A stretch of DNA of 47,201 bases from an uncultured Verrucomicrobiales bacterium (GTDB lineage Bacteria; Verrucomicrobiota; Verrucomicrobiia; Limisphaerales; JAYPXF01), in NCBI GenBank assembly GCA_937893495.1, contig CALBIE010000591.1, positions 1 to 47,201 of the forward strand, given 5' to 3'. The position numbers and the translations under genes were made by a program. Shown piece after piece: positions 8,000 through 37,368 of the stretch. Below the pieces are notes generated by a model. It saw only the letters and a program-made list of their open reading frames with translations. It was not told where the DNA came from and did not search any database. The first letter of the stretch is position 1, and every line of letters begins with the position of its first letter.

Positions 8000-10456
8000 G
8001 TGGGATTGGGCGAGAAAGATGTCGGGTCACAGACCCAGTTACCGGACGGATGGTTCACTCCATTTCGGTTCGGTCTGCTGCTGTTTGGATTCCTGTTCAC
8101 GGTGTATCCGGAGGTGATCCTGGGGAGTCACACGTTTTTCTTTCGCGATTTCGGGCACTTCGGATTTCCGGTTGCGCATTATCATCGGGAGAGTTTCTGG
8201 AATGGCGAAATCCCGCTGTGGAATCCGTACAGCACATGCGGCATTCCGTTCCTCGCGCAGTGGAACACGCTGGTGCTGTATCCCGGCTCGTTGATTTATC
8301 TGCTGCTGCCGGAGCCATGGGGGGTCGGATGGTTCTGCCTCGCGCATGTTCTGCTTGCCGGGCTGGGAATGTATCGATTGACGCATGAACTCACCGGCAG
8401 CCGGTTCGCGGCGTGCGTCGGCGGACTGCTCTTCGCCTTCAACGGCTTCACTCTTCACGCGGTCATGTGGCCGAACAACATCGCTGCCTGGGGCTGGCTG
8501 CCGTGGGTGTTGTGGTCCGTGCGTGGTGCGTGGCGCGACGGCGGAAAGGCGCTTGTTCCGGCCGTGCTGCTCGGTGGATTGCAGATGCTCTGCGGCGCGC
8601 CGGAAATCATTTTGTTCACCTGGCTGCTGATGGGCGTGTGGCTATTGGCGGAGGTGTGGCAAGGACGCGGAAAGAGAGTGCATAATTCGGGGCCTGCCGA
8701 GCCGGAGGCCGGCGCTCCGGGGGCATGGTCCGCCATTCGTCGATTCGTGTTGGTTGGCGTCATGGTTGCCGCCCTTTGCGCCGCGCAGTTGCTGCCTTTC
8801 CTTGAACTGGTCATTCACTCTCATCGCGAAGCCGGTTTCGATACCGATATGTATGCCCTCCCGGCCTGGGGTTGGGCCAATCTGCTGGTGCCGCTCTTTC
8901 GCGCCACGCCTTCGGCCACCGGGGTGTATTCGCATGTTGAGCAGCAATGGACGTCGTCTTTCTATCCGGGGATCACCGGGCTCGCATTGGCGATCTGGGT
9001 GATCGCGCGCGGACAGGATCGCGTCATGCGATGGCTGGCCGCATTTGGTCTGATGGGGCTGATTCTCGCTCTGGGCCAGAAGGCGTTTCTCCTGCCGTTG
9101 TTTCAACAGGTATTGCCCCTCTTCGATCTCATCCGGTTCCCGGTAAAGTATGTCGTGCCGATGTTGATCGTGACGCCGATATTGGCTGCGGCTGCGATTG
9201 CACATTGGGAAAGATTTTCCACCGATGACAGCCAACGCGAAGGCGTCGTTGCCGGGCGAATCTGGCTGCTGCTGCTGCTGGCGACAGGATTCATCTGTTA
9301 CGAAGCCTGGTGTCAACCCGGGTCCGATGAAGACGGGACAATGACCGTCGTCAACGGCGTCAGTCGGATGGCCTGGTTGATTCTGCTGGGCGTACTTTTA
9401 TTGCTTGGCCACCGGCATGACCTGCGGCGAATCAAAGCGCAAGCGGTCATCCCGTCCAACAAACAAGACGAGAAAGGCAAATGGCAACCGGGGAAAGGAT
9501 TCGCACAGAGTTTGCATGGCAACAGCGATCAAGATACGCCGAGACACGCGGGTTCTCCCGTCGTGACCGGGGCGTTTCTGCGAGGAGCCGTTTTACTGGT
9601 TATTGGTCTCGATATTCTGACGCATACACCGGAACAGAATCCGACCGTCGTGACGCAGGCCTATGAACCCGGTGTCGCCCGCTTGAACGCGATGCCCCGC
9701 CTCGGTGAAGGCCGTGCGATGGTCTCGCCGCGGATGGAACTGTTCCTGAGTCAGGCGGTAAATCCTGACGCCTTGAATTACTGCATCAGCATGCGACGGG
9801 CATTATTCACCGACTGGAATCTGCTGGAAGGCATTCCGAAGGTGAACGGCTTTTTCTCGATGTATCCGGCCGAGCATCAAGCCATCTGGCGGCGGTTGTA
9901 CGAATCTGGTGCCGTGCCGCCCGCGCCATTGATGAATTTTCTCGGGGTCTCGCGGATCTCCAACGAGGAAACCGTTTCGACCTTCAACTGGGATTCGCGA
10001 TCCGATGCTTTGCCGTTGATCATCGGTGGCCAGAAACCGTTGTTCGTGGAGGACAAACTAATTCCCGAATTGATGACCTCCGAAGAATTTGATCCCGAAC
10101 AGGTCGTGTTGCTCCCGGCGGAACTGGAATCCGCGAACCTTGGCAAGGAGTCGGCGGAGATTCGGATTGAGGCACAGTCATGGTCAACTCATCGAATCAC
10201 TTTTGATGTGGACGCGGCGGATGCCGGTTGGGTGGTAATCGCGCAGGGTTGGTATCCGCATTGGCGCGCATTCATTGATGGCGACTCAGTGCCGTTGTTT
10301 CGCGCTAATCACGCGTTTCAAGCCATTCAAGTTCCGGCCGGCCAACATGCGGTCGTGCTCGAGTATCGTGACCGGACTTTTCTGGTGAGCGGATTGATTT
10401 CCATTGCAACTTTGTTTGTATTGTTCGCCATGCACCGGATAATCCGCCGCCAGTGA
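8000..10456 (+). CDS. YfhO-family membrane protein, copy 1 (putative GT-C glycosyltransferase)
   Basis: The 818-residue protein has about 12 membrane segments and a C-terminal beta-rich domain. It is the first of four tandem homologues. YfhO relatives in Firmicutes are GT-C-fold enzymes that add sugars to surface polymers from lipid-linked donors. The first extracytoplasmic loop holds FFRDFGHFG, with the Asp expected for GT-C catalysis, then GEIPLWNP and LAQWNTLVLYPGS. The C-terminal domain has WVVIAQGWYPHWRA, FRANHAFQAIQVPAGQH and a final membrane helix. A hydrophilic insertion of about 45 residues (near 475-520, KQDEKGKWQPGKG) is absent from the other copies. GTG 8000 follows an in-frame stop and lacks a strong ribosome site. 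TTG 8006 is an alternative. Its TGA overlaps the next start by 4 bp. Confidence 0.85.
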   Translation: MGLGEKDVGSQTQLPDGWFTPFRFGLLLFGFLFTVYPEVILGSHTFFFRDFGHFGFPVAHYHRESFWNGEIPLWNPYSTCGIPFLAQWNTLVLYPGSLIYLLLPEPWGVGWFCLAHVLLAGLGMYRLTHELTGSRFAACVGGLLFAFNGFTLHAVMWPNNIAAWGWLPWVLWSVRGAWRDGGKALVPAVLLGGLQMLCGAPEIILFTWLLMGVWLLAEVWQGRGKRVHNSGPAEPEAGAPGAWSAIRRFVLVGVMVAALCAAQLLPFLELVIHSHREAGFDTDMYALPAWGWANLLVPLFRATPSATGVYSHVEQQWTSSFYPGITGLALAIWVIARGQDRVMRWLAAFGLMGLILALGQKAFLLPLFQQVLPLFDLIRFPVKYVVPMLIVTPILAAAAIAHWERFSTDDSQREGVVAGRIWLLLLLATGFICYEAWCQPGSDEDGTMTVVNGVSRMAWLILLGVLLLLGHRHDLRRIKAQAVIPSNKQDEKGKWQPGKGFAQSLHGNSDQDTPRHAGSPVVTGAFLRGAVLLVIGLDILTHTPEQNPTVVTQAYEPGVARLNAMPRLGEGRAMVSPRMELFLSQAVNPDALNYCISMRRALFTDWNLLEGIPKVNGFFSMYPAEHQAIWRRLYESGAVPPAPLMNFLGVSRISNEETVSTFNWDSRSDALPLIIGGQKPLFVEDKLIPELMTSEEFDPEQVVLLPAELESANLGKESAEIRIEAQSWSTHRITFDVDAADAGWVVIAQGWYPHWRAFIDGDSVPLFRANHAFQAIQVPAGQHAVVLEYRDRTFLVSGLISIATLFVLFAMHRIIRRQ

Positions 10457-13020
10457 TCGATTCCCAATCGTCAATCGCAGACACGACGTTGCCAACGGAT
10501 ACAGAGAACGCATTGGCCGACTGTTTTCGTCCAGTGCGATTTGCTCTGTTGCTCGGATTGCTCGTGGTGGTTTCATGGCCGGCGGTGGTGTTCGGGACTC
10601 AGTCGTTTGTCCTGCGGGATTTCAGTGTGTTTGGATATCCCATCGCCCATTACGCGCGGGAGAGTTTTTGGAACGGTGAAATTCCCCTTTGGAATCCGCT
10701 CAACAACTGCGGTCTGCCCTTTCTCGCGCAATGGAATACGATGGTGCTGTATCCGCCGTCGCTCATCTATCTGCTGCTGCCATTGCCCTGGTCACTTTGT
10801 CTCTTCTGTCTGTTGCATCTCTATGGCGGTGGACTCGGGATGTATTTCCTCGCGCGCCGATGGACGGCCAACAATTTCGCCGCGGCCATCGCCGGCGTGG
10901 CCTACGCATTCAATGGGTTGACACAAACGGCGTTGATGTGGCCGAACAACATAGCCGCGCTCGGGTGTTTGCCGTGGGTGGTGCTGTGCGCCCAACTTGG
11001 ATGGCGCGAGGGGGGTAAATGGTTCACCCGCGCCGCGCTCGTTGGCGCGCTGCAAATGCTGACGGGCGCGCCGGAAATCATTCTGCTCACCTGGGTTTTC
11101 ATTGGTGTGCTTTGGCTGGCGGATTTGGTGGCGGGGAAAGAGCACGCGGTCCGAAGTGCTCGCGGATGCACCTTCGCACCCGGGATCCCTATCGCTCCAT
11201 CCCTGTCAGGGAACCCAGACGCCCCCTCATTCCATCCCTCTCCCCCAGTGGGGGAGAGGGTGCCCGAAGCGCCGGGTCAGGGGACCCGGCCTACAATTTG
11301 TAGGCCCGGTGCCCTCACCGGGCTTCCCTCGTTTCGGGAGGTTTATGGAGAGAGCTCCCGAGGGTTGGAGAAAGAGGATTCGGGGCGAGGTGAAGGCTTG
11401 TTTTCCGTGATCGTCCGACTGCCGTTGCTCGTCGTGGTCATTGCCGGGTTGTCGGCGGCGCAATTGCTGCCGTTCCTGGATCTGCTGGCGCATTCTCAAC
11501 GTGGAGAGGAGTTTGGCGGGCAGGTGTGGTCCGCATCGCAGTTCGCCTGGGTGAATTTCCTGGTTCCGCTTTTTCGCACCATTCGTGCATCGTCGGGTGT
11601 TTACCTGCAGGCGGATCAACTGTGGGCGCTGTCATTCTACGCCGGAGTGGGGACCTTGTTGCTGTCCGTCATGGCCGGTTGGCGACTCCACCGTTCCGGG
11701 CTGCTCGTATTGATCGCACTCGGCTCGCTTGGCCTGGCGATGGGTGCCGCCGGGGTTTTGTTTCCCATCGCCGACCGATTCGCACCACTGGGTTTCATGC
11801 GTTATCCCGCGAAGTTCATGGTTTTAACGGCCATTGTCATCCCGCTGTTGGCGGCCGTGGGACTGAAACGATTCCTGGATTCGAAGGACGGTGAATCATC
11901 GAATTCGTTCAGCTTTGCCGTGATGGCGTTGCTTGGATTGTTCGGCACTGGTTTTTGGTTGATCGGTCTTGTCCCGGTCGATGGAGAAATGATGGACCCG
12001 GTCTATCAAAGCGCGTCGGTGCGATTGGCGTTTCTGCTTTGTGTCGTCGGGTTGTTGTTCGGACTCAAAAAGGTCACCGAAGCGCGGCGGCGTTCGCTAA
12101 TCGCCTTCGCGCTGATCGCGGTTGTCTGGTTTGACCTGAAGACACACCTGCCCAATCTGACTGCGACTGTTTCGCCGGCGTTGATGGTGGACCGATTGCC
12201 GCTGCTCCAGGACCTTAAGCCCAGGCCTGCGCTTGAAAACGGCAGGGCAATGCTCACGGCGAACGCGTTGTTGGAGTTTAAACACAAGTCGCTGCCCGAC
12301 ATGGGGCAAACGCTCGTGCTCCAACGCGTCGGTATGTTCGACAATTTCAATCTGCTCGAAGGCCTGGCCAAGATGGACGGCATCTGGTCGCTCTATTTAC
12401 GGGAGCAGTTCGAGATCGAAATGCGGCTCTATGCGAGTGAGACGAATATTCAGCCGGCGCTGGGCGATTTTCTCGCCGTCAATCAGGTGTCTTCGCCCAC
12501 GAACATTTTTCAATGGATACCTCGTCCGACTGCGATGCCTGTCATCACCGCGGGACAGCAACCCGTTTTTGTTCAGTTCTCGAATATTTTTCGCGTGTTG
12601 CTCGCCAGGAATTTCGACCCACGCGAGGTCGTATACTTCAACGAGGACAGCACTGAACTGATGTCAACCAATCGGGTCCGTGACGCGCGCATTCGGCAGT
12701 CGTCAATTTCCGCTCACCGCGTTGCCTTTGACATCGAAACACCGACGCCGACGGTGGCCGTCATTGCGCAATCCTATCATCGCGGGTGGGAGGCGACGGT
12801 GAATGAACAACCGGCCAGGGTGTATCGGGTAAATCACGGATTCCAAGCGGTGCGGATTCCCGCCGGCAGGCATCATGTCGAACTGCGGTATCGCGATCGA
12901 AAATTCATGGCAGGATCTTTCATTTCGCTGGGGACTTTGTTTGCATTGTTCGGTTTCAAGCGAATTGAAAAACTGGTGATAAAGAGCGGGAACAAGGGCA
13001 AAAATGCAGAAACACCATGA
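10453..13020 (+). CDS. YfhO-family membrane protein, copy 2, carrying an in-frame palindromic-repeat insertion
   Basis: This 855-residue paralogue has the same layout as copy 1: VLRDFSVFGYP in the first outer loop, GEIPLWNP, LAQWNTMVLYPPS, and the C-terminal VIAQSYHRGWEA ... VNHGFQAVRIPAGRH. It is longest because residues about 237-315 are an insertion rich in Pro, Gly and Ser. The other copies have only 5-20 residues between LTW...LA and the ...AAQLLPF helix at that place. The inserted DNA consists of nested palindromes (separate entry), yet the frame stays open. It starts at GTG 10453 in a GTGA overlap and ends in an ATGA overlap with copy 3, so the operon is translationally coupled. Substrate unknown. 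Confidence 0.85.
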   Translation: MIDSQSSIADTTLPTDTENALADCFRPVRFALLLGLLVVVSWPAVVFGTQSFVLRDFSVFGYPIAHYARESFWNGEIPLWNPLNNCGLPFLAQWNTMVLYPPSLIYLLLPLPWSLCLFCLLHLYGGGLGMYFLARRWTANNFAAAIAGVAYAFNGLTQTALMWPNNIAALGCLPWVVLCAQLGWREGGKWFTRAALVGALQMLTGAPEIILLTWVFIGVLWLADLVAGKEHAVRSARGCTFAPGIPIAPSLSGNPDAPSFHPSPPVGERVPEAPGQGTRPTICRPGALTGLPSFREVYGESSRGLEKEDSGRGEGLFSVIVRLPLLVVVIAGLSAAQLLPFLDLLAHSQRGEEFGGQVWSASQFAWVNFLVPLFRTIRASSGVYLQADQLWALSFYAGVGTLLLSVMAGWRLHRSGLLVLIALGSLGLAMGAAGVLFPIADRFAPLGFMRYPAKFMVLTAIVIPLLAAVGLKRFLDSKDGESSNSFSFAVMALLGLFGTGFWLIGLVPVDGEMMDPVYQSASVRLAFLLCVVGLLFGLKKVTEARRRSLIAFALIAVVWFDLKTHLPNLTATVSPALMVDRLPLLQDLKPRPALENGRAMLTANALLEFKHKSLPDMGQTLVLQRVGMFDNFNLLEGLAKMDGIWSLYLREQFEIEMRLYASETNIQPALGDFLAVNQVSSPTNIFQWIPRPTAMPVITAGQQPVFVQFSNIFRVLLARNFDPREVVYFNEDSTELMSTNRVRDARIRQSSISAHRVAFDIETPTPTVAVIAQSYHRGWEATVNEQPARVYRVNHGFQAVRIPAGRHHVELRYRDRKFMAGSFISLGTLFALFGFKRIEKLVIKSGNKGKNAETP
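11236..11323. repeat. Nested palindromic repeat inside the copy-2 yfhO-like gene
   Basis: Four inverted repeats lie in tandem. They are CCCTCTCCCCC-AGT-GGGGGAGAGGG (11236-11260), CCGGGTC-AGGG-GACCCGG (11272-11289), GGCCTACAA-T-TTGTAGGCC (11288-11306) and GCCCGGTG-CCCT-CACCGGGC (11304-11323). The block is translated within the 855-residue protein and its length keeps the frame. Such GC-rich hairpin strings normally sit between genes as dispersed palindromic repeats. The flanking stretch 11160-11395 is also absent from the paralogues, so the inserted unit is probably larger than the hairpins. Confidence 0.75.
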
Positions 13021-15356
13021 CTGCTGACGGCAAAAATGATGACCCTTCGTCGGACGCGGAAGGTCCAATTGAATGGCTGTCGTCCACGCGTTTCGCCGGG
13101 TTGCTTGCGCTCGTTTTCATCGGTTCATTTTTCGGAGTGTTTATTGGATCGGAAACGTTTTTTCGATCGGACTACGGCGTCATCGGTTACCCTTCGACGT
13201 TCTACTTTCGGCAGAGCGTGCTGGCGGGTGAACTGCCGCTTTGGAATCCGTTGAGCAATTGCGGCGCGCCGTTTCTCGCGCAATGGGGAACGATGTGTCT
13301 CTACCCCGGCGCGTTGTTCTACGTTCTCTTTCCCATGCCGTGGTCGTTGGGGGTGTTCAGCCTCGGGCACCTGTGGTTTGGTGGCGTGGGAATGTTTTTC
13401 CTCGCGCGTCGCTGGACGAACGACCCGTTCGCGGCGTCATTCGCCGGATTCTCATTTGGCTTAAGCGGGGCCGTATTGGCGTGCCTAATCTGGCCTAACT
13501 ACTGCGTCGCACTGGGATGGATGCCGTGGGTTGTTCTCACTACACAAATCGCCTGGCGGGACGGCGGTCGCAAGATTCCCATCGCGGCTTTGGCCGGGAC
13601 CATGCAGATGTTGACTGGCGCGCCTGAACTGGTGTTGCTGACCTGGCTGCTGCTGCTGGTTCTTGGGTGCGCCGAAATCTGCTCAATCTCGAATCGCGTG
13701 ATGCTGGTTGTTCGCTTTGGGTTGGTAATTGGAATAATCGCAGCGCTTTCAGCAATTCAGTTATTACCGTTTTTTGAATTGCTGGAACACTCCCAACGCG
13801 ACGCATCGTTTCGTGATTCCCGCTGGCCAATGCCCATTTGGGGTTGGGCGAATCTGTGGGTGCCATTCTTTCACTACGGTATCACCGATCAGGGGCTGTA
13901 TGTGCAGCAGGGGCAATACTTCCTCACCTCATACTATCCCGGTGTTATTGTTTTGGCTCTGGCTGTTTTGGCTGCGTGGCGGGTGCGTCATCGGAACGTG
14001 ACGATATTTATCGTCCTTTCGATTTTTGGCCTCCTCATGGCCCTTGGTGAGGGCGGATTGATTTTCCCGGCACTCAAACAACTGCTGCCGGGTGGGGGCA
14101 TGGCGCGATATCCCATCAAGTTTGTTTTTCTTGCCGCGTTCCTGTTTCCGCTGCTGGCGGCCTACGGGCTCAAGCGACTGGCCGAAGACAAGGCTGCCAA
14201 TTTGGCGAGTCAGAACCGCGATGCGCTCCGGATCGGAGTTGCGACTGTCGTCGTCATGCTGATCCTCCTGGCGCTGGCCCACGTATTCGCCAATCCGTTT
14301 GACCAGCTTGCCCAGACGCGCGCCAACACCGGCGCCCGGTTGATGTTGTTTGGGTTTGTCGGATTCGCGCTGATGCGATCGACGGAGAATTCAGCGCCGG
14401 TGCGACAAAAGCGCCTGTGGCAGATGTTGACGCTTTTATTCCTCGCGACCGATCTGCTGACGCATCTGCCCCGCCAGAATCCCCGCGTTCCCGCCGCGTT
14501 GTATGCGGCCAATCAACTTCAATCGACGTTGAAGCTCTATCCGCCCCCGATTCATGGAAAGGCGCGGGTCATGATTCTGCCGGAGACGGATCATCGATTG
14601 AACCTCAGTCTGCCGCCGCGACTTGAACGTGACTACGCGGAGAAACGTTTGAACGCCTGGTCGCACCTCAACCTGCTCGATGGCTACGCCAAGGTGAACG
14701 GCTCCTCCACGCTTCGAATTCGTGAGCAGGATGAATTGGAGCGGTTGCTTTATCCCAAAACCATCACCAATGCGCCGTCAGCGAAGCCGATCACGGATTT
14801 CCTTGGCGTGGCGCATATTTCTGCAACGACGATCTCAAATCTGTGGGAGCCGCGGTTCAGTTTCATGCCGTTCGTCACCGGTGGTCAACGGCCCGTCTTC
14901 GCGGACCCGTCAACCACGCTCAGTAATCTGGTCGGCACTAATGTGAGTCTCCGTGAAGTGGTTTTTCTCAGTCCGGACGACCGCGATAAAGTCGGTGAAC
15001 TGGCCGCCTCGAAACCGCGAATTGAATTACAGTCGGTTCGCGCGCATGAAATTCGTTTCACGGTTGAGGCGGAATCGCCGGCTCTCATCGTCATTGCCCA
15101 ATCGCATTACCCGGCGTGGCGGGCAACCGTGAATGGCAGCGCGGCTGACATTCTGCGGGCCAACCATGCGTTTCAGGCCGTCAAGGTGGAGAAAGGAAAT
15201 TCCGAGGTGCGCCTTTACTACCGAGACCAACAATTTCGAACGGGTTCAATCATTTCCGGAATCGCGTTTGCCGTTTGTCTTGTCTGGCTGATTCCGGTAT
15301 CCCGAAAGAAATCCGTGCTGAATGGAAATGAGCAGTCAGACGAATCCAATGACTGA
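13017..15356 (+). CDS. YfhO-family membrane protein, copy 3
   Basis: The 779-residue copy starts at ATG 13017 within ATGA. In the first outer loop it reads FFRSDYGVIGYP. The Asp is kept, but the preceding Arg seen in the other three is displaced by Ser, and RESFW becomes RQSVL. GELPLWNP and LAQWGTMCLYPG follow. The C-terminal beta domain has LIVIAQSHYPAWRA, LRANHAFQAVKVEKG and a last membrane helix. It has no large loop insertion. These differences suggest that copy 3 has drifted in donor or acceptor choice. This is inference from the alignment of the four visible paralogues. Confidence 0.85.
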   Translation: MTADGKNDDPSSDAEGPIEWLSSTRFAGLLALVFIGSFFGVFIGSETFFRSDYGVIGYPSTFYFRQSVLAGELPLWNPLSNCGAPFLAQWGTMCLYPGALFYVLFPMPWSLGVFSLGHLWFGGVGMFFLARRWTNDPFAASFAGFSFGLSGAVLACLIWPNYCVALGWMPWVVLTTQIAWRDGGRKIPIAALAGTMQMLTGAPELVLLTWLLLLVLGCAEICSISNRVMLVVRFGLVIGIIAALSAIQLLPFFELLEHSQRDASFRDSRWPMPIWGWANLWVPFFHYGITDQGLYVQQGQYFLTSYYPGVIVLALAVLAAWRVRHRNVTIFIVLSIFGLLMALGEGGLIFPALKQLLPGGGMARYPIKFVFLAAFLFPLLAAYGLKRLAEDKAANLASQNRDALRIGVATVVVMLILLALAHVFANPFDQLAQTRANTGARLMLFGFVGFALMRSTENSAPVRQKRLWQMLTLLFLATDLLTHLPRQNPRVPAALYAANQLQSTLKLYPPPIHGKARVMILPETDHRLNLSLPPRLERDYAEKRLNAWSHLNLLDGYAKVNGSSTLRIREQDELERLLYPKTITNAPSAKPITDFLGVAHISATTISNLWEPRFSFMPFVTGGQRPVFADPSTTLSNLVGTNVSLREVVFLSPDDRDKVGELAASKPRIELQSVRAHEIRFTVEAESPALIVIAQSHYPAWRATVNGSAADILRANHAFQAVKVEKGNSEVRLYYRDQQFRTGSIISGIAFAVCLVWLIPVSRKKSVLNGNEQSDESND

Positions 15357-17664
15357 GACGAGACTTTCGGAGCGCAGGTTTATCGGCCTCCTCGGGGTGT
15401 TGTTGTTGCTGACCTTTTATCCGGTCCTGCTTGGCGGGCAGGCGTTGTTTTATCGTGACTACGGATTCCTGGGTTACCCGTTTGCGCACTTTCACCGCGA
15501 GATGTTCTGGAGCGGGGAAATTCCGTTTTGGAATTCCCTGATTCACTGTGGTGTGCCGTTTTTCGCGCAGTGGAACACGATGGTGTTTTATCCGGGGTCC
15601 TTGATCTATCTCATCTTTCCGCTGCCGGTTTCGCTGGCGTGGTTTTGCGTATTGCACATCTTCCTTGGCGGCGTCGGGATGCGGCGACTGGCGCTGTGCT
15701 GGACGGGTTCGGATTTTGGGGCGGCGGTCGCGGGTGTCTCTTTTGCAGTCGGTGGTATGATGCTTGGATCGGTGATCTACCCGAACTATCTCGTCGCATT
15801 TGGGTGGCTGCCATGGGTGTTCCTGTTTGCGGAAAAGGCGTGGACGCATGGCGGGCGAAACCTCGCGCTGGCGGCGCTGGCTGGTAGTATGCAAATGCTC
15901 AGCGGCGCGCCGGAATTGATCCTGATGACCTGGATGCTTCTGGGTGTTGTTGGCGTCAGCCGAATTGCTTTTGATGCCACCGCTCCTGAAGCCCTGCCGC
16001 GCCGGTTTGTCTTTGTGGTTCTACTCATTGCCGGAATCTGTGCGTTTCAACTGCTCCCGTTTTTTGAACTGCTGCATCACTCCCAGCGGGACGCCGGTTC
16101 CGCATCTGGATTCTGGGCTTTGCCCGCGTGGGGATGGGTGAACTTTTTTGTGCCGCTCTATTCGCATTTCAAGACTGAACAGGGCGTTTATGTTCAAGCC
16201 GGACAATCGTTTTTGCCGACGTATTACCTCGGCATCGTTCCGCTGTGGCTCGCGGTGGTTGCCATCTGGCAGCAACGCAATTGGCGCACGGTGGCACTGG
16301 CGTTTGCGGGATTTGGCGCGCTGTTGATCGCGATGGGCGAGCAGTCGCCGGTTTACGGAATGCTGAAGTCCGTGTTTCCCGTCGGCTTTGCCCGGTTCCC
16401 GGTCAAGGCGGTTTTGATCATTGGATTCATCGGTCCCGCGCTCGCGGCCCATGCGATCGCCTGTTGGGAGAAACATCCTGCCACCGGCAGTGAATCGATT
16501 CTTCGGCGATTGGCTCAAAGCGCGGGCGTGATGGCGTTGGTCATTGCGGGCATCGGCGGTTTCTCACGCATGAAGCCGCTCTTTCCGAATCCGGACGACC
16601 TGACGGTTTCGAACGGAATGGTTCGACTGGTTTTCCTTGTGGCCGCGATGGCTGCGCTGGTCTGCTGGCGAAGGCTGTCCGACGCTTTGCGGCGCGTCGT
16701 GCCGATGGGGTTTCTCGTCCTGATCTGGCTGGACGTGATGACTCACACGCCGGTGTTGAATCCCACCATTGACGCGGGAGCGTTTCAGTCGAATCTCGCG
16801 CGCGCCTATCAGCAACAGCAGGGTGTTGAGTTTCCCGAATTGAAGAACGGGCGGGTGATGCTCCGTCCCGAAGCTGAACTGGCGCTCCACACGCGGATGG
16901 TGCCGAAGTTTTTTGACGATTTCATCGGTCAGCGACTGGCGATGTGGGGCAATCTCAATCTGCTCGACAATGTCGCCAAGGTGAACGGCGCCGCCACACT
17001 TCGACCCGCTTGGTGGAACTCCATTGAGAGTGCACTCTACACGAGCACCAATCTCGCCCACACCAACCTCATTCGCTTTCTCGGGGTAACCCATGTGACC
17101 CGGACCGGGGAATTGATGCAATGGCAGGCGCTCTCCACCAGCATGCATCGGGTCACCGCCGGGCAAACCCTTAAGTCTGTGCCGCGCGGTGCCCCGTCTA
17201 TCTGGGAGAGCCCGCTTTGGAATCCACGCACCGAAGCCTTCACCGGCGACGTGGTTGATGCGGAATTGACGAATTTGCCGGCGGTCAGCGCATCCGTTTC
17301 AGAAATTGTCCATGGGAATGGGCGCCTGCAATTTGTCGTGGACGCACCGTCCGCGACGATTGCCGTGATTTCTGAAACATTTTATCCGGGCTGGAAGGCG
17401 ATCGTGAATGGCGATTCGGCCCGGGTGATTCCCATGAACCACGCTTTCATGGCCGTGCCGGTGAATGCCGGGAAAAGTGTCGTGCAATTGAACTATTCGG
17501 AGCCGCGTTTTGGAATCGGAATCGGGATTACATTTTTGTCGTTGGTAGTCTGTGGCTGGCTCTGGCGGCGGCCCGACGAAGAGGACGTTGAACCCGGCCT
17601 GGATTATGTCGAAAGCGGATCGCTGACCGCCCACCTGATGGGCATGACGGGTGGCGAGATTTAA
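15322..17664 (+). CDS. YfhO-family membrane protein, copy 4
   Basis: The 780-residue copy has the first-loop motif FYRDYGFLGYP, then GEIPFWNS, FAQWNTMVFYPGS, a dozen membrane helices and the C-terminal domain with IAVISETFYPGWKA and MNHAFMAVPVNAGK. The track start at 15322 overlaps copy 3 by 35 bp. ATG 15349, in frame nine codons on, would overlap by only 8 bp and resembles the other junctions. No ribosome site decides between them. The C-terminus extends about 35 residues past the final helix (EEDVEPGLDYVESG...). It is the last gene of the operon and is followed by a repeat element. Confidence 0.85.
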   Translation: MEMSSQTNPMTETRLSERRFIGLLGVLLLLTFYPVLLGGQALFYRDYGFLGYPFAHFHREMFWSGEIPFWNSLIHCGVPFFAQWNTMVFYPGSLIYLIFPLPVSLAWFCVLHIFLGGVGMRRLALCWTGSDFGAAVAGVSFAVGGMMLGSVIYPNYLVAFGWLPWVFLFAEKAWTHGGRNLALAALAGSMQMLSGAPELILMTWMLLGVVGVSRIAFDATAPEALPRRFVFVVLLIAGICAFQLLPFFELLHHSQRDAGSASGFWALPAWGWVNFFVPLYSHFKTEQGVYVQAGQSFLPTYYLGIVPLWLAVVAIWQQRNWRTVALAFAGFGALLIAMGEQSPVYGMLKSVFPVGFARFPVKAVLIIGFIGPALAAHAIACWEKHPATGSESILRRLAQSAGVMALVIAGIGGFSRMKPLFPNPDDLTVSNGMVRLVFLVAAMAALVCWRRLSDALRRVVPMGFLVLIWLDVMTHTPVLNPTIDAGAFQSNLARAYQQQQGVEFPELKNGRVMLRPEAELALHTRMVPKFFDDFIGQRLAMWGNLNLLDNVAKVNGAATLRPAWWNSIESALYTSTNLAHTNLIRFLGVTHVTRTGELMQWQALSTSMHRVTAGQTLKSVPRGAPSIWESPLWNPRTEAFTGDVVDAELTNLPAVSASVSEIVHGNGRLQFVVDAPSATIAVISETFYPGWKAIVNGDSARVIPMNHAFMAVPVNAGKSVVQLNYSEPRFGIGIGITFLSLVVCGWLWRRPDEEDVEPGLDYVESGSLTAHLMGMTGGEI

Positions 17665-28231: not shown

Positions 28232-29194
28232 ATGGACGAAACGAAGGGCATGAAAGATGAGGAACTCCCAGGTGTTTCAGTCGTCATTCCGGCCTACAAC
28301 TACGCCCGTTTTCTTCCCTTTGCCGTTGAGTCCGCCCGGAGTCAGGATTATCCGAAGTTCGAGGTCGTGGTGATCGATGACGGTTCCAAAGACAACACGG
28401 CGGAGGTGATGAAGCAGTTCTCCTCACCGGTTCGCTACGTCTATCAGGACAACGTTGGCTTGTCTGCGGCGCGCAATAGCGGAATCCGGGAGGCGAAATA
28501 CGATTTCGTGGCTTTTCTAGATGCCGATGATGAGTTTCGCCCTGGTTTGCTGCGGGAGGGCATGTCGCGGTTTGCGGAATTGGTTGATGAATATGGGTTG
28601 GTTGCCTGCGCTGGTGAGCAGATTGATGTGGACGGAAAACCGCTTTACACCCGGAAACACGTTCCCGAAACGCCTCGCGAAGTTCGGGTTGAGGAGATTG
28701 TGATGCGGACCCGGTTCATGCCGACCGGTGTCATTTGCCGGAAACATGTCTTTGATAGCTGCGGCGGGTTTGACACGCAATTGAAGAGTACGGAGGATCG
28801 GGACATGTGGATTCGGATTGCCGCGCGGCACCGGGTCTTTCACCAGGGCAAGGTGCTGGCCAATATCCGGAAACACGGCGACAACATGAGCAACAACGCG
28901 GATCAGCAGCAGCGCAACATGTCGATCGTGTTAAAGAAATCGTGGCGCAATGGTGTTGTTCCGCGCGTCCGATTCTGGTTCTGGCTGCAGGTCTTTTCGT
29001 ATCGGCGATATCAGGCAGCCCTCATCTACAACGGCATCAAGCGCCCATGGCCGGCTTTCCGCGACCTGCTCGTCAGCATTCTTTACTGGCCTGTGTTTTT
29101 CAATCCCGCCTCCACGGGTGATCGTTTTATGTTCCGCTGTCGCCAGTTGGTTCGCTTTACCCTGAACGCCTTGCGGGGCGAAGTGAAACGCTGA
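28232..29194 (+). CDS. Family 2 glycosyltransferase
   Basis: The 320-residue soluble enzyme has the GT-A fold signature VSVVIPAYNYARFL, VVVIDDGSKDNT and the metal-binding FLDADDEF. Next come a region with TRFMPTGVICRKHVFDSCGGFD and STEDRDMWIRIA, the usual acceptor side ED motif. It would add one sugar to the growing lipid-linked repeat unit on the cytoplasmic face. The donor cannot be read from the sequence. An in-frame ATG at 28250 could be the true start. It lies 79 bp after the Wzc-like gene. Confidence 0.9.
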   Translation: MDETKGMKDEELPGVSVVIPAYNYARFLPFAVESARSQDYPKFEVVVIDDGSKDNTAEVMKQFSSPVRYVYQDNVGLSAARNSGIREAKYDFVAFLDADDEFRPGLLREGMSRFAELVDEYGLVACAGEQIDVDGKPLYTRKHVPETPREVRVEEIVMRTRFMPTGVICRKHVFDSCGGFDTQLKSTEDRDMWIRIAARHRVFHQGKVLANIRKHGDNMSNNADQQQRNMSIVLKKSWRNGVVPRVRFWFWLQVFSYRRYQAALIYNGIKRPWPAFRDLLVSILYWPVFFNPASTGDRFMFRCRQLVRFTLNALRGEVKR

Positions 29195-29218
29195 CGCAAT
29201 TTCATTGATCGATCGGCC

Positions 29219-30343
29219 ATGCGCAAAGCCAGACGTCTCCGCGTCCTGCACGTGAATCTTTCCCTCGAACCCGGAGGGATGGAGAACGGGATTGTCAACG
29301 TCGCCAATCGATTGCCGGAGGATGAGTTCGAGCTGTTTTTTTGCTGCCTTGAAACAGGCGGCGCATTTGTCGAGCGATTGAATCACCCCGAGAATGTTTT
29401 TGCCTTCAGTAAGGCGCCGGGATTTTCGCTGAGCACGGTCTGGAATGTGATGAAGACTGTGGCGAGGACATCACCGGATGTAGTGCATCCGCACAACCTC
29501 GCCCCCTTGACTTACGCCACGCTTGGTACGTTTCTGGGATTTTGGAAACCCTTACTACAGGGGGAGCACGGGGTATTTCAGGGCGAGCAGGGTTCGGCCC
29601 GACGATTGCTCCAACGGCGGCGGCTGTATCATTGCTGTCGGAAAGTCCACACGGTTTCCGAAGGGTTGCGACAATACCTGATTGCTCAGGGCTTTCCGGG
29701 GAACAAGATCGTCTCCGTTGTCAATGGTGTGGATACCGCCCGGTTTGTTCCGGCTGACCGCGTGGCGATCCGCCGCCAAATCAATCTCCCGCCCGAGGCA
29801 ACCGTTTTGGGAATCGTGGGACGATTTGATCCGAACAAAAAGCACCTGCTTCTGCTGGAGGCATTTCACCGGATAGCGGAGGGGCATCCTTCCGTCCATT
29901 TTTTGATCCTGGGCGACAACGGCAGCGAACGGGAGAACATTCTGGCCGCTGTGGAGGCCAGTCCGTGCCGATCCCGCATTCATTTGGCGGGATTTCAGGC
30001 CGATCCATTGCCCTGGTATCAGGCCATGGATCTACTGGTAATGCCCTCGCCGTTCGAGGGTCTGTCCAACGCGGTGCTCGAGGCGATGGCCTGCGCAGTG
30101 CCTGTGCTGGGGAACGTGGCTTGTGGCAATGCCGAAGTGATCGAGCATGGCGTCGATGGCGTGCTTGCAGGACTGGATTCGGTTGATACCCTTGCCGTTG
30201 AAATTGCTCGATTGCTCGATGCCCCAAAAAAGGTGCGGCAACTGGCCGAAGCAGCTCGTCGAAAGATGGTTGAACGGTTTTCCATCAACGCCATGGTGGA
30301 TCGCTATGCGGCGCTCTACCGGGAAGTGGCCGGCTGGGGTTGA
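29219..30343 (+). CDS. Family 4 glycosyltransferase
   Basis: The 374-residue GT-B enzyme starts RVLHVNLSLEPGGMENG, a typical N-terminal nucleotide-fold loop. The C-terminal domain carries VLGIVGRFDPNKKHLLLLEAF, HLAGFQADPLPWYQAMDLLVMPSPFEG and the donor-binding EX7E stretch EGLSNAVLEAMACAVPVLG. These mark a retaining GT4 enzyme acting on nucleotide sugars. The gene lies 24 bp after the GT2 gene and before the polymerase, so it probably builds the EPS repeat unit. Confidence 0.92.
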   Translation: MRKARRLRVLHVNLSLEPGGMENGIVNVANRLPEDEFELFFCCLETGGAFVERLNHPENVFAFSKAPGFSLSTVWNVMKTVARTSPDVVHPHNLAPLTYATLGTFLGFWKPLLQGEHGVFQGEQGSARRLLQRRRLYHCCRKVHTVSEGLRQYLIAQGFPGNKIVSVVNGVDTARFVPADRVAIRRQINLPPEATVLGIVGRFDPNKKHLLLLEAFHRIAEGHPSVHFLILGDNGSERENILAAVEASPCRSRIHLAGFQADPLPWYQAMDLLVMPSPFEGLSNAVLEAMACAVPVLGNVACGNAEVIEHGVDGVLAGLDSVDTLAVEIARLLDAPKKVRQLAEAARRKMVERFSINAMVDRYAALYREVAGWG

Positions 30344-30404
30344 TCCCGGCCCGTTAATTCGGAATTTGAATTTGAGCCGGGAAATCAGATAGAGTGTCTC
30401 TGTC

Positions 30405-31952
30405 ATGGATTTTGTATCCATCGCGCTATTTACGATTCTGCTTTACGTGCGCCCGCAGGAAATCTTCGGATTCCTCGAGGCGTTGCGGCCCGCATTTGTT
30501 GTCATGGCCATGGGGTTTGTGGCGCTCCTGGTAAGGCCCGGCGGGTTGAATCCAAAGACGATTCTGCGCACGCCGCACGACTGGTTGATGGCGGCTTACT
30601 TTCTCTGGATTATCTTCACCAACGAAGCGGAGTACGAGACCTGGAAAAAGATTTATCCGTTCGTCGGCTTCTACTTTATCTCGGTGCAGGCGCTGACCAG
30701 CGTGGAGAGGATTTACCAACTGCTCTACGTCCTGTTGGGTTGCATCATGTTCATCGCCATCATGGCCCTGGCGCAACTGATCGGCATTGATCCCGTCGGC
30801 TCAGCGGGCGTGACGGAGGGCTCTAACGGCCGACTGGTTTTCAATACGGGCCTGTTTAACAACGCCAATGCGCTCGGGCATAGCGTCATTGTGGCGATTC
30901 CTTTGACCTACTTCCTGATGGTCTGGAAACGTGAGATCTTCGTCAAGGAAGTCGCCATCCCGATGTTCGGAATTGCACTGTGGTGCGTATATCTGACGGA
31001 ATCCAAGGGCTCCTTTATCTCGGGGTTTGGTGCCGTGCTCGCGACGTTGACGTTTGGGCGTCCCAAGTGGATTCAGGCGATTATTCTCACGCTGGCGCTG
31101 ACAGTTGGATGGGGCGCGATGGCTGCCCTTCCGCGATTCGGCGAGCTGCAAGCCAGCAAGGCCAGTAAGGACGAGGCGATTCAAGGCCGCGTCCGGGCGT
31201 TTGTATTTGGAAGGTGGGCTACGGACACCTTGCAATACGGTGTGGGATACGGAAATTTCGTCGATGCCATGGCTCGCAAGGAAGGCGAAGAGGCAGCCAT
31301 CGCCTCGCACTCGTCCTACAACCAGATCAGCGCCGAGCTGGGCAAAGGTGGTTTGTTCCTTTTCGTCGGCCTGATGTACGTGGCAATGCGGACCTTGGTT
31401 CAGGCGAAGACAGCCAATGTTCAGGAGGAACGGATTCGACGCGCCATGTTTTGTCTGGTGTTGGGGTATGGTGTGTCGTCGTGGATGATCGACTTCGGGT
31501 TTCGCGCGCTGTTTTTTCTTATGATCGCCATGGTCGGGGCGTTTCATCGAATGCTTCAGACGCGTACCGGTGTGGTCGGGGCTGAGCAGGACCTGGAGCA
31601 GGCTTTACAGCGTGAGAGCAATCCCCTCCACGGAATGGCTGCTGCCGGTGCAACGGGCGCGCAGACCTATATGGCGCAAATGAAACAGATTCGCGGTGCC
31701 GCCCGTCGGGGGATGGGGACGGCGATGTCCGCTGTCGCGCCCATTGCCCCATTGTCCGGGTCAGCCACGATTCAGGCCTCTAATGCTTACGCCCCTGCTG
31801 CGATTGAACCCGGAATTGCGTTGCCGACGGGAGCGTCCAGTTTCATGCCCTGGGCCCGGTTGGGTTGGCTTGATTTTGTCCTCATGTATGCCTTGCTGCG
31901 TTTGGCCCTGTATATCCGCGTTTACGCCATTGAAGACCTATTTGCGGGGTAG
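30405..31952 (+). CDS. O-antigen ligase / Wzy-like polymerase
   Basis: The 515-residue protein has about 11-12 hydrophobic segments and a large loop with the hallmarks of the Wzy_C family: NTGLFNNANALGHSVIV, then GRVRAFVFGRW ... GVGYGNFVD ... HSSYNQISAELGKGGLFLFV. The His and the Arg pairs in these loops are the residues thought to handle undecaprenyl-linked glycans. In this setting polymerisation of repeat units is likelier than ligation to lipid A. The last 120 residues are an unusual Ala/Gly/Pro-rich segment before a final hydrophobic stretch (LGWLDFVLMYALLRLALYI). A weak TTGAAT-N18-TAGAGT upstream could be a promoter. Confidence 0.85.
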   Translation: MDFVSIALFTILLYVRPQEIFGFLEALRPAFVVMAMGFVALLVRPGGLNPKTILRTPHDWLMAAYFLWIIFTNEAEYETWKKIYPFVGFYFISVQALTSVERIYQLLYVLLGCIMFIAIMALAQLIGIDPVGSAGVTEGSNGRLVFNTGLFNNANALGHSVIVAIPLTYFLMVWKREIFVKEVAIPMFGIALWCVYLTESKGSFISGFGAVLATLTFGRPKWIQAIILTLALTVGWGAMAALPRFGELQASKASKDEAIQGRVRAFVFGRWATDTLQYGVGYGNFVDAMARKEGEEAAIASHSSYNQISAELGKGGLFLFVGLMYVAMRTLVQAKTANVQEERIRRAMFCLVLGYGVSSWMIDFGFRALFFLMIAMVGAFHRMLQTRTGVVGAEQDLEQALQRESNPLHGMAAAGATGAQTYMAQMKQIRGAARRGMGTAMSAVAPIAPLSGSATIQASNAYAPAAIEPGIALPTGASSFMPWARLGWLDFVLMYALLRLALYIRVYAIEDLFAG

Positions 31953-31975
31953 TGGTGTTTACTACCCGTCATTGA

Positions 31976-33115
31976 ATGGAACTCAATCAACCTTGCCATT
32001 GGTTCTTCTGGGGTAGTTTCGTGGCGCTTGGTTATACCTTTGTCGGGTACCCGATCGTGATTGGCACTTTGGCGCGGCTTTTCCCTCGTCCAATTAACAA
32101 ATCAAAGCCGGTAGTCTGGCCGCACGTGTCGGTGGTCATTGTTGCCTATAATGAAGCTGCCCGAATTCGTGATCGGATTGAGAATCTTTTTGCTGCGGAC
32201 TATCCGGAGGAACGGCTGCGGGTCATCGTCGTGACCGACGGCTCCGATGACGGCACGTCGCAGTTGTTGAAAGACCTGAAACATCCCCGTCTTGACCTGA
32301 TTGAGCGAGCAGCGCGCAGTGGTAAGTCGGCCTGTGTCAACGCGGGAATCGCCCATGCAGACAGCGAGTTGGTGGTATTGTGCGATGCCCGACAGCGATT
32401 CGAGTCAGAGACAATTCGGGAACTGGTGCAAAATTTTTCAGATGATCGCGTTGGCGCTGTCAGTGGCGAGTTGTTGATCGAAGGCGCTTCCACGAGCATC
32501 GGCGGTGGGGTGGATCTCTACTGGCGACTGGAAAAGTTCATTCGCGCCGCTGAATCACGCTTTCGATCCGTCATCGGGGTTACGGGTGCGGTTTACGCGA
32601 TTCGGAGGGAACTCTTTGTGCCGATTCCGGAGGATACTTTGCTGGATGACGTGGTGATTCCGATGCAGATTGTTCTACGGGGTTATCGTGTAGGATTTGA
32701 CGCGGACGCCCGGGCGTATGATCCACAGATGACTGATCCCGCGCGGGAGAAACGACGCAAGCTCCGCACGCTGGCCGGCAATTACCAGATGTTTTTCCGC
32801 TACCCGGGATGGATGATGCCGTGGCGAACCGCATTGTGGTGGCAGTTGATCTCGCATAAATACTCGCGAATCCTGGCACCATTCCTTATGATCATACAGC
32901 TCGTGTCCAATGTCATACTGCATGAACAGCCGGGATATCGGCAGTTGCTGATTGCGCACGCCGGGTTTTACCTTCTGGCCCTGCTCGGGACTCTGATGTC
33001 GGGTTTCAAAGTGCGCCTGATCTCCGTGCCGGCGGGTTTTGTATTTCTGAACATGATGGTGATGGGCGGCTTTTGGAATTTCCTGCGCGGGAGTTACCGG
33101 CAGGGAAAATGGTAG
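31976..33115 (+). CDS. Membrane-associated family 2 glycosyltransferase
   Basis: The 379-residue protein has an N-terminal helix (FWGSFVALGYTFVGYPIVIG), a GT2 catalytic domain and two or three C-terminal helices. Motifs are VSVVIVAYNEAARI, VVTDGSDDGT, a DxD-like CDARQRF, and LLDDVVIPMQIVLRGYRV in the acceptor/base position. QxxRW is replaced by a basic KRRKLRTLAGNYQ stretch. This layout resembles processive-type synthases, but the altered QxxRW argues for a single-step enzyme. It starts 23 bp after the polymerase gene. Confidence 0.88.
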   Translation: MELNQPCHWFFWGSFVALGYTFVGYPIVIGTLARLFPRPINKSKPVVWPHVSVVIVAYNEAARIRDRIENLFAADYPEERLRVIVVTDGSDDGTSQLLKDLKHPRLDLIERAARSGKSACVNAGIAHADSELVVLCDARQRFESETIRELVQNFSDDRVGAVSGELLIEGASTSIGGGVDLYWRLEKFIRAAESRFRSVIGVTGAVYAIRRELFVPIPEDTLLDDVVIPMQIVLRGYRVGFDADARAYDPQMTDPAREKRRKLRTLAGNYQMFFRYPGWMMPWRTALWWQLISHKYSRILAPFLMIIQLVSNVILHEQPGYRQLLIAHAGFYLLALLGTLMSGFKVRLISVPAGFVFLNMMVMGGFWNFLRGSYRQGKW

Positions 33116-33127
33116 GACGTGTGGCGT

Positions 33128-33889
33128 ATGCTCAGCTTTGCTTTTCATTCTTCCCGGCTGGCCGGCTGGCCGGTCTGGCATCGATGGTTGGCACCTCGGG
33201 CGCGGCCTGCCGATGCGTTCGGCTTCGCGATGTACTACCATTGCCGAAGCACTCGCCGCGTGCCGGGCTTTGTCCGTAAAGTCAAACACACCAAGCTGAT
33301 TGACCTGACTCGCTCCGAGGATGAGATATTTGGTGACTTCAACAAGAACGCGAAGCAGAAGCTAAAACGCGCGGTGGCGGACAGCCTGCGTTTTACGACC
33401 GACAACACCCTGGAGGAACTGCGCGAAGTCTATAACGCGTTTGCCGGGGCGAAAGGACTGCCATTGGTGGAAGACCGGGTGCTGGAGGCCTACTGGCCGA
33501 AGCTGGTGGTCACAAAGCTGTCGTCAGACAATCAGACGCTGATCATGCACAGTTACATGTTGGACGAAGCCGCGAAATATGCCTGTCAAATTCAAGCCGC
33601 ATCCATGTTCCGTGTGCTGGACATCCCGGATGCCAACGCCTTTTTCGGCCGTGCCAACCGGTATTTGCATTATCTGGATATGCTGCTTTTGAAGGAGCGG
33701 GGTTATCAGACGTTTGATATTGGCGGTGTCGCGGTGGACACGGAGGACCCGGTGCTGAAGGAAGTGAATGCCTTCAAGGACAGTTTTGGCGGCGAATTGG
33801 TGGAAATGAGCACCTATCTTTCTCTGCCGCTGTGGCTCGGACGCAAACTGTCCGATTGGTTCGGGCGCGAGAAAAAACCCCGGGACTAG
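33128..33889 (+). CDS. FemAB/GNAT-like transferase of the EPS locus
   Basis: The product of about 253 residues contains the FemAB-like core FGDFNKNAKQKLKRAVADSLRF followed by EELREVYNAFAGAKGLP. Later come AKYACQIQAASMFRVL, ANRYLHYLDMLLLKERGYQTFDIGGV and a conserved C-terminal FKDSFGGELVEM. FemAB relatives transfer aminoacyl or acyl groups. A FemAB member is a standard part of exosortase-associated EPS clusters. Here it may modify an amino sugar of the polymer. GTG 33119 (track start) has AGGA only 1 nt away. ATG 33128 has it at 10 nt and is preferred. Substrate unknown. Confidence 0.7.
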   Translation: MLSFAFHSSRLAGWPVWHRWLAPRARPADAFGFAMYYHCRSTRRVPGFVRKVKHTKLIDLTRSEDEIFGDFNKNAKQKLKRAVADSLRFTTDNTLEELREVYNAFAGAKGLPLVEDRVLEAYWPKLVVTKLSSDNQTLIMHSYMLDEAAKYACQIQAASMFRVLDIPDANAFFGRANRYLHYLDMLLLKERGYQTFDIGGVAVDTEDPVLKEVNAFKDSFGGELVEMSTYLSLPLWLGRKLSDWFGREKKPRD

Positions 33890-34061
33890 CTTGGGCTTCG
33901 GGCCCCCGTTCCTGCCGCCGAACTGTTCTTGTGCGTCTGGTCCGGTCGAAATAACATTTTTATCCGCAGTTGGCCCGCGACCGACGAATCCAAAGTATTG
34001 CGGAGAATTGGAACGGCACCATCAGTTGTCGGGCAGAGACTGCATTATCAACAACGGTCAA

Positions 34062-35003
34062 ATGTACAGACTCAAGATCATGCTTGCACGCCTGGCGCAG
34101 TTCATTGCGCATTATTCCGGTGTGTCCACGCGCCGTGCGGGCGCGGGCAGTGGTGGTCGAATTCTGATGTACCATGGCGTCGGTGTAGCGGACTGTCGAG
34201 CGGATGTTTTCGAAAGCCAGATTCGTTTTCTCACGGAACATTTTCAGATTGTGTCGCTCAGCGACATGGTCACGGGTGTGCAAAAGCAGCCGGAGGAACT
34301 GGATGGCAAGATCGCGCTGACCTTCGACGATGGCTTGCGCAACAATTTTACGGTGGCGTATCCGGTGCTCAAAAAGTACCGTGCTCCGGCGACTTTTTTC
34401 ATATGTCCCGGCCTGATCGACAGGGGCGCCTGGCTCTGGAACGTGGAAGCGCGTTGTCGGATGAAGAGTTTGGCTGCCGGCGAACTTTCTCGCCTCGCTG
34501 ATGGGCTGGGTCGTTTCGGTGCCTCGCCGAACCAAGTGGTGGATTGGATGAAAACGCTGCCGTTCGAATCGCGGCGGCATGTGGAGGAAGTCATTCGGCG
34601 GGAGACTCGAACATTTACGCCCGGCGAGCGACTCAGGAGCGAGAATGATCTGATGAGCTGGGACGAAGTCCGACAACTGGATCCGGCATTGATCAGTATC
34701 GGTGCCCACACCACCAATCATCCGATTCTCAAACATTGTACGCCGGAGGAGTTGACGGCCGAAGTGAGCGAATGCGGTCAACGAATCGAGGATCATATTC
34801 ATCGGCCGGTCGAGCATTTCTGTTACCCGAACGGGGATTTCAACGAGACCGTCGTGCGTTATACCGAGAAGAACTACCGTGCGGCCGTCACGACGCAGCC
34901 GGGTTATGTCCGCGGAGGCGCGTCGGTTCATCAATTGCCTCGCATTGGTTCGACCCACAATCTTACCTATCTTTCCTGGCGACTGCACCGGCCGTTTTCC
35001 TGA
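34062..35003 (+). CDS. Polysaccharide deacetylase (NodB-like, CE4)
   Basis: ATG 34062 gives 313 residues. The track start at 33891 adds 57 residues of no recognisable content. The NodB motifs are present: GRILMYHGV, IALTFDDGLRNNF (catalytic base Asp and metal Asp), ATFFICPGLIDRG, SIGAHTTNHPIL (metal His pair) and FCYPNGDFNE. No signal peptide is clear, though the first 20 residues (MLARLAQFIAHYSGV) are mildly hydrophobic. The enzyme would remove acetyl groups from N-acetylated sugars of the polymer or an intermediate. It precedes a conserved NodB-like gene by 3 bp, so the two act as a pair. Confidence 0.9.
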   Translation: MYRLKIMLARLAQFIAHYSGVSTRRAGAGSGGRILMYHGVGVADCRADVFESQIRFLTEHFQIVSLSDMVTGVQKQPEELDGKIALTFDDGLRNNFTVAYPVLKKYRAPATFFICPGLIDRGAWLWNVEARCRMKSLAAGELSRLADGLGRFGASPNQVVDWMKTLPFESRRHVEEVIRRETRTFTPGERLRSENDLMSWDEVRQLDPALISIGAHTTNHPILKHCTPEELTAEVSECGQRIEDHIHRPVEHFCYPNGDFNETVVRYTEKNYRAAVTTQPGYVRGGASVHQLPRIGSTHNLTYLSWRLHRPFS

Positions 35004-35006
35004 GGC

Positions 35007-36131
35007 ATGATCGATTACCTGAAGACCGCCCGATACTGGCTTCCCACTTATCTTCGGCAGCCGGTCGATCCACTTCCCTCCGGGATGAAGGACGTGATGG
35101 TTTGCGTCTGCGATCACTTCGAACCTCTGCACGGCGCGAACAAACCTGAAGCGCGCGCGCGCCTGGTTCGGTGGAAGAAGAAGTTTCCTGAGAATATCGC
35201 TCCTTTCAAAGATGCCGATGGGATTCATCCCCGACACACGCTGTTCTACCCGGTGGAGCAGTACGATTCTGACCTGCTTTGCGAAATTGAGGAACTGGTG
35301 GCTGCGAGCGGCGCCGAGGTTGAGTTGCATCTGCATCACGATAACGAAAACAGTGAACGATTCCGTCGCCATATCGTGGAGGGGATTGAAAACTTTCGAA
35401 AGCACGGCTTTCTCTCTTCTGATCGATCAGGGAAAACCCGTTACGGATTCGTGCATGGCGATTGGGCTTTGGACAACTCGCATCCGCTGGGGATCAATTG
35501 CGGCGTCGATGACGAAATCCGGTTGCTGCGGGAAACGGGTTGTTATGCCGATTTCACGCTTCCTTCCGCGCCGGATGCCGCTCAGACGAGCACTATCAAT
35601 CGCATCTATTACGCCATGGACAGCCTTCGTTCCAAATCACACGACACGGGTGTGGCGGCGCGGGTTATGTCCGATGAACCCGAACCGCGGGCGATTGACA
35701 CGCCCCGATTCGGAGACCTGTTGCTCGTGCAGGGCCCCCTCGGATTGAATTGGGAGTGTCGCAAGTTCGGGTTTCTTCCGCGCGTTGATAATGCGGACCT
35801 GACGAAAGTGAATCCGCCGACTGAGTCTCGGTTGCGGCTCTGGTTGCGATTGCACATTCACGTCGTGGGGCGTCCGGAGTGGACATTCATCAAACTGCAT
35901 TGTCACGGTGCCCCGCCGCCCAACTCGGAGGTTTTTCTGGGCGACCCTTATCGTCAATTTCACGAACACCTGGCCGCGGAATTGACCGGGGCAAAAAACT
36001 GGCGGCTCCATTATGTGACGGCCCGCGAGCTGGTTAACATCGTGCATGCGGCCGAGGATGGTCACTCGGGAAATGCCGGCGAGTTTCGTGATTATCGTTA
36101 CCGGCTGAATAACTCGAAGGGCGAGGCGTGA
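35007..36131 (+). CDS. Conserved EPS-locus protein with divergent NodB-like motifs
   Basis: The 374-residue protein has no family I can name. It shows an acid/His pattern comparable with, but not equal to, CE4 deacetylases: MVCVCDHFEP, EVELHLHHDNEN, RYGFVHGDWALDNSHP, CYADFTLPSAP, and HIHVVGRPEWTFIKLHCHG near the end. These five regions could form a metal site. The gene begins 3 bp after the deacetylase stop and overlaps the next GT4 start by 4 bp (GTGA). This tight coupling suggests a shared pathway step. A polysaccharide hydrolase or second deacetylase is the best guess. No signal peptide is seen. Confidence 0.7.
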   Translation: MIDYLKTARYWLPTYLRQPVDPLPSGMKDVMVCVCDHFEPLHGANKPEARARLVRWKKKFPENIAPFKDADGIHPRHTLFYPVEQYDSDLLCEIEELVAASGAEVELHLHHDNENSERFRRHIVEGIENFRKHGFLSSDRSGKTRYGFVHGDWALDNSHPLGINCGVDDEIRLLRETGCYADFTLPSAPDAAQTSTINRIYYAMDSLRSKSHDTGVAARVMSDEPEPRAIDTPRFGDLLLVQGPLGLNWECRKFGFLPRVDNADLTKVNPPTESRLRLWLRLHIHVVGRPEWTFIKLHCHGAPPPNSEVFLGDPYRQFHEHLAAELTGAKNWRLHYVTARELVNIVHAAEDGHSGNAGEFRDYRYRLNNSKGEA

Positions 36132-37294: not shown

Positions 37295-37330
37295 AAGTGG
37301 TTTGCGCGGTGTCTGATTTGCCAGCGTCCA

Positions 37331-37359: not shown

Positions 37360-37368
37360 TTTGTCCAC

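Follow-up and report, generated by a model that had tools for sequence, protein, structure and literature searches.

A composite of two dispersed palindromic repeats lies in frame in a YfhO-like gene of a Limisphaerales bacterium, in a loop that holds unrelated palindromes in other members of the order

How does a stretch of hairpin-forming DNA come to lie, with the reading frame intact, inside a gene for a membrane protein whose neighboring paralogues lack it? The window, that is, the whole 47,201-nt stretch of DNA that we analyzed, is contig C591 of a metagenome-derived assembly (8.0 Mb in 900 contigs, 88% complete, 6.7% contamination) of an uncultured Verrucomicrobiales bacterium, and it carries four YfhO-like genes in a tandem array with short overlaps (8000-17664). 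The second of these, P0001 (10453-13020, plus strand, 855 aa), overlaps the preceding P0002 (8000-10456) by 4 nt and is followed by P0003 (13017-15356) and P0004 (15322-17664); these three paralogues, all on the plus strand, are without the repeat, and P0002 has a short loop extension only. The Pfam family PF09586 (YfhO) matched the C-terminal end of P0001 above the cut-off, and a Foldseek search with its AlphaFold2 model (42-sequence alignment, mean pLDDT 87) returned the GT-C enzymes AftD (8.1e-06) and ArnT (9.4e-05). By these comparisons, P0001 is a YfhO-like protein with a predicted GT-C fold and a putative glycosyltransferase. After the YfhO cluster, the window contains a polysaccharide-type region (28232-39069) with family 2 and group 1 glycosyltransferases and a sulfatase.

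The segment between two conserved helices measures 145 residues in P0001, as against 77, 60, and 61 in P0002, P0003, and P0004, respectively. P0001 thus has ∼80 residues that its three tandem paralogues lack, in agreement with the ∼79 counted in a preliminary description of this locus. The inserted loop, residues 236-312 (11158-11388, plus strand), was delimited by pLDDT and by its absence from the paralogues and most homologues; it is the sole interior segment of P0001 with a pLDDT below 50, is predicted to be disordered, and is flanked in the model by helices 207-236 and 317-333. From the N-terminal helix count under a GT-C topology, the loop probably faces the cytoplasm. All 855 codons of the open reading frame are open, so the view that the frame is unbroken held, and the insert is predicted to form a protein loop. 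The hairpins reported in the insert were also recovered, as a perfect inverted repeat with 12-nt arms (11236-11260) and a second with 26-nt arms at 85% (11271-11323). Folding of the RNA from 11205 to 11365 gave -92.1 kcal/mol (z = -4.98), and none of 200 shuffles folded as low. The limits 11160-11395 proposed earlier fit the insert as a whole and not the repeat core, since alignment to other genomic copies identified 11210-11352 as the clearly repeat-derived DNA, and the extra sequence on either side (11140-11209 and 11353-11400) showed no significant similarity to repeat A or B in the alignment. The core is 143 nt long, which is not a multiple of three, and the flanking extra sequence therefore had to restore the frame.

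We found that this core is a fusion of two dispersed repeats. Repeat A (11210-11283, plus strand, defined by alignment) is the left part of a dispersed CCCTCTCCCC/GGGGAGAGGG palindrome whose hairpin lies at 11236-11260 and whose consensus is TGAACCGGGACGCCCCCTCACCCCATCCCTCTCCCCC-AGT-GGGGGAGAGGGTGCCCGAAGGGCGGGTGAGGGGG...GGTTCATGG. Repeat B (11263-11352, plus strand, also defined by alignment) is a dispersed element that reads TGAACCCGAAGCGCCGGGTCAGGGGACCCGGCCTACAACTTGTAGGCCCGGTGCCCTCACCGGGCGTCCCTCG...GGTTCATGG, and a CCCGAAG/GCGGGT stretch is common to both repeats at their junction. According to the sequence and an inverted-repeat scan, B contains an inverted pair of GTAG-tagged REP hairpins, the first being GTAG GCCGGGTC CCCT GACCCGGC on the minus strand (11271-11294) and the second GTAG GCCCGGTG CCCT CACCGGGC on the plus strand (11300-11323). 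Each unit forms an 8-bp stem closed by a CCCT loop, within the range of GTAG REPs (hairpins of 20-40 nt with stems of ∼6-9 bp), and GTAG stands at the hairpin foot in each unit of the window copy, as it does in the large majority of copies; as expected of REPs, B occurs in many dispersed copies, often as inverted dimers. The copy alignment revealed no GTAG at the foot of the A hairpin, and we therefore file A only as a dispersed palindrome. Alignment scores were 109 for A (shuffle maximum, 28) and 150 for B (shuffle maximum, 27), and other genomic copies of B were 80-94% identical. A search of the same genome, which the preliminary description had suggested as a check on a repeat origin, matched A or B at no fewer than ∼44 other places, a lower bound because 40 of the 177 candidates were scored. 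Related sequences were present in 23 of 40 genomes of the order.

It is likely that a composite of two dispersed palindromic repeats entered this YfhO-like gene and survived in a permissive loop. In this scheme, two GTAG REPs in inverted orientation, together with the second palindrome to which they are joined, would have entered the P0001 coding sequence, with the copies presumably spreading by way of single-stranded DNA on which a RAYT-type (TnpA-REP) enzyme acts. The insert would have survived because the frame stayed open and because the loop that received it, which connects two transmembrane helices and probably lies in the cytoplasm, is permissive; the P0001 protein may still work, and the loop may add no function. 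More generally, surviving inserts would be in frame and in loops because lineages in which the frame was disrupted or the fold impaired were lost. The evidence supports a tolerated in-frame insertion and nothing further, and the term "exapted," which implies a gained function, was too strong.

We compared 62 loci from a contig scan of genomes, which with further relatives gave 92 open reading frames of at least 600 residues. Nearly all records that yielded P0001 homologues were named Verrucomicrobiota, and many of these belonged to Limisphaerales or subdivision 3. Most of the ∼100 homologues were without an insert at this site (hereafter loop 1), with no palindrome there in 65 of 92, and the best-matching genes in two genomes of the same family (L035/L086 and L037) had no such insert; the orthologues do not share the P0001 loop. 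Given also the dispersed copies, neither half of the refutation proposed in the preliminary description holds. A homologue tree built without the loops showed that the four genes of the window are one-to-one orthologous to the four-gene clusters of L085 and L115, and partly to those of L081, L088, and L117. In those clusters every orthologue seen has a palindrome in loop 1, and its family varies. GGCAAAA-type arms were present in L085 (four genes), L088 (two genes), L117, and L121, and CGTAAAACGG/TTACGCATTACG arms in all four genes of L115 and in L091 and L131. GTTCAGT/ACTGAAC arms occurred in two genes of L081 and in L117, and GTCCAAA arms in both L081 and L088. Elsewhere, the arms are GTTCAAA/CACGTTT in L134, two A-like hairpins occupy the loop in L032, and GC-rich hairpins do so in L110, L129, L109, L092, L084, and L082. 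In total, at least eight unrelated palindrome families lie in frame in loop 1 among the ∼100 homologues, contrary to the statement that such inserts are rare in a membrane glycosyltransferase. Orthologues bearing different palindromes are 60-81% identical, the tree requires a minimum of 12 changes for presence and 21 for type, and all three of the families that we searched for recur at many places in their own genomes. Judged by these sequence comparisons, unrelated palindromes have repeatedly landed in loop 1 across the order. In L084, loop 1 of the open reading frame from 4299 contains a hairpin-bearing unit of ∼110 nt that is duplicated in tandem almost exactly. The YfhO-like genes of L082, L121, L088, L085, and L117 group with Verrucomicrobia, and the titles of their records give Akkermansia muciniphila, Klebsiella pneumoniae, or Proteobacteria; these records may be mislabelled.

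With a threshold score of at least 12, the 8.0 kb of loop 1 sequence yielded 16 inverted repeats versus 23 in 219 kb elsewhere, although these counts are phylogenetically non-independent and independent events are better gauged from the number of unrelated families. Inverted repeats this strong occurred at 0.05 per gene in codon-shuffled genes. The inverted repeats counted outside loop 1 cluster in three further loops (consensus positions 389-398, 455-461, and 656-668) and before the start codon. A single hot spot was rejected, as palindromes occupy at least three further loops; loop 1 is thus the most used site and not the only one. The partial open reading frames in the set either run off the end of a contig or locus or are interrupted at other places, and none breaks at loop 1. 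In loops of the GTTCAGT and TTACGCA types, the coding frame is free of stops, and nearly all other frames contain one to four. In one genome (G044), all four coding copies of the TTACGCA type, a small sample, read CGGAAA where several intergenic copies read CGTAAA. Because seven is coprime to three, a seven-base arm specifies one and the same heptapeptide repeat whichever frame is read, and a stop-free arm consequently stays open in any register.

In the likely scheme given above for P0001, loop 1 would also have taken up unrelated palindromes repeatedly in other Limisphaerales. A broader and more tentative proposal, to which we give somewhat less than an even chance, is that Limisphaerales harbor many protein-invading palindrome families, including a class with seven-base arms, and that certain loops are refilled repeatedly as the dominant repeat family of the genome changes. 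A serious alternative for the sister clade, though on balance unlikely, is that an older loop palindrome was overwritten by newer families, either through insertion into it or by conversion, so that occupancy was inherited and the sequence changed along with the repeats current in the genome. Independent insertions by themselves hardly account for a clade in which every gene seen has a palindrome in loop 1, and the presence of a single family per genome in L085 and L115, with differing families in orthologues that are 60-81% identical, also fits replacement. However, only one of the four paralogues in the window's genome has the repeat, the loop is short in most other lineages, and no trace of an older palindrome is left in A or B of P0001.

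Selection for a function, with the RNA hairpin or the encoded loop acting, for example, as a ribosome pause between two membrane modules, is improbable. The RNA hairpin is indeed stable, and the palindromes are strongly clustered in one loop, where the well conserved N-terminal part gives way to the variable remainder of the protein; yet three of the four paralogues here and the majority of the homologues do without a palindrome at this site, and palindromes also occur in the further loops and in unrelated proteins. The joining of two contig pieces at a multi-copy repeat, which a metagenome assembly this fragmented and contaminated might suggest, is very unlikely indeed, because both halves of P0001 best match one orthologue group (71 and 42% to L085+5001), relatives keep the gene order, and the frame runs through.

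In other bacteria, GTAG hairpins are the substrate of TnpA-REP enzymes (PMC8266576). The window's genome, which is ∼88% complete, gave 25 Y1_Tnp matches, with GTAG hairpins of another family beside three of them, and no RAYT gene adjoined by B-type hairpins was found among the 25. In L229, L230, and L232 of this genome, Y1 transposase genes have GTAGCGCAGGCGTC-type GTAG hairpins alongside in a REPtron-like arrangement. The best Y1 match, on C756 (L213), is a 154-aa open reading frame that we read as an IS200-type transposase and not as a RAYT.

Rickettsia palindromic elements are the classical in-frame case (reviewed in PMC10969869), and the parallel drawn with them earlier fits the behavior, namely palindromic repeats in frame in unrelated genes that encode an extra peptide. 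The likeness meant here is one of behavior; the phylum differs, and the units here are shorter and bear a GTAG tag. The closest relatives, however, are GTAG REPs, which were catalogued within genes in 2013, with the verrucomicrobium Opitutus terrae having the most intragenic GTAG repeats (PMC3733652). The same study described intragenic GTAG REPs in both uvrA genes of O. terrae and, in the recB genes of two Xanthomonas, differing REPs at nearly matching positions (PMC3733652). B resembles those elements in its tagged 8-bp hairpins, inverted pairs, dispersal over the genome, and occasional in-frame position in genes; it differs from them in that the REP pair is joined to another palindrome, which is untagged, and lies in a YfhO-like membrane protein, and in that many unrelated families have refilled a single loop in several orthologue groups. 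As in REP doublets of the TnpA-REP system (PMC8266576), GTAG hairpins form inverted pairs in a genome with Y1 transposase genes, but no RAYT gene with an adjoining B hairpin was found here. The coding palindromes of nematomorph mitochondria (PMC6649704) are likewise inverted repeats in coding sequence that are gained and lost between species, but they are perfect and up to 284 bp long, whereas the present ones are imperfect members of dispersed repeat families. Since in-frame REPs are known from Rickettsia and O. terrae, the P0001 insert alone is one more case of a known phenomenon. In the open-access literature, we found no report that palindromes at a single loop turn over repeatedly in several orthologue groups, or that conserved proteins contain heptamer-armed palindromes, and these two aspects look new. 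Until now, in-frame palindromes were known for the most part from isolated examples in Rickettsia and in a small number of REP-rich genomes. Four syntenic orthologue groups with different palindromes per genome in the same loop form a natural replicate series, which makes it possible to ask whether such insertions are tolerated, selected, or overwritten and at what rate proteins gain sequence from intergenic repeats. It also calls for caution, as loops of metagenome-derived proteins may be translated repeats without family signal.

Palindromes of the GTTCAGT type also lie in frame within conserved genes of two other genomes, G042 and G046. In a UvrA (L202, G042:C458:54692-57723), residues 497-536 fall between aligned blocks that end at residue 443 and start at residue 445 of a solved UvrA, indicating that ∼40 residues are inserted. 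A PheT (L195, G042:C44:11810-14840) has a GTTCAGT-type left arm at about residues 271-281, where the alignment is otherwise continuous, and this supports an insertion less strongly than the UvrA case does. In the same two genomes, a GTTCAGT-type palindrome is in frame in PSCyt2/PSD1 (DUF1549/DUF1553) proteins (L196, L198, L201, L205, L207, L209, L210, and L211). The GTTCAGT palindrome copies of L193-L212 have common arms and differing spacers, unlike copies of one transposed unit.

In the window's genome, long open reading frames over other A or B copies (L014, L020, L027, L028, and L029) were set aside, as the repeats apparently lie upstream of the true start. An SRREEA...LLTSAAT element is repeated in this genome and also occurs in loop 2 of the YfhO-like genes L115+7348 and L081+3214. 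A 566-aa open reading frame with this element (L023, G000:C718:8843-10540) may be a second in-frame case; we did not accept this candidate as established, as its conserved part stops at the start of the repeat and nothing beyond matched relatives. Finally, a TTTTGCC heptamer arm was observed near position 1501 in an extracellular solute-binding-like protein of L171 (G041:C10:49019-52050) and L150 (G043:C160:3329-6360), where it seems to encode the hydrophobic core of a putative lipoprotein signal peptide (AFCLLPFAFCLLLLGC).
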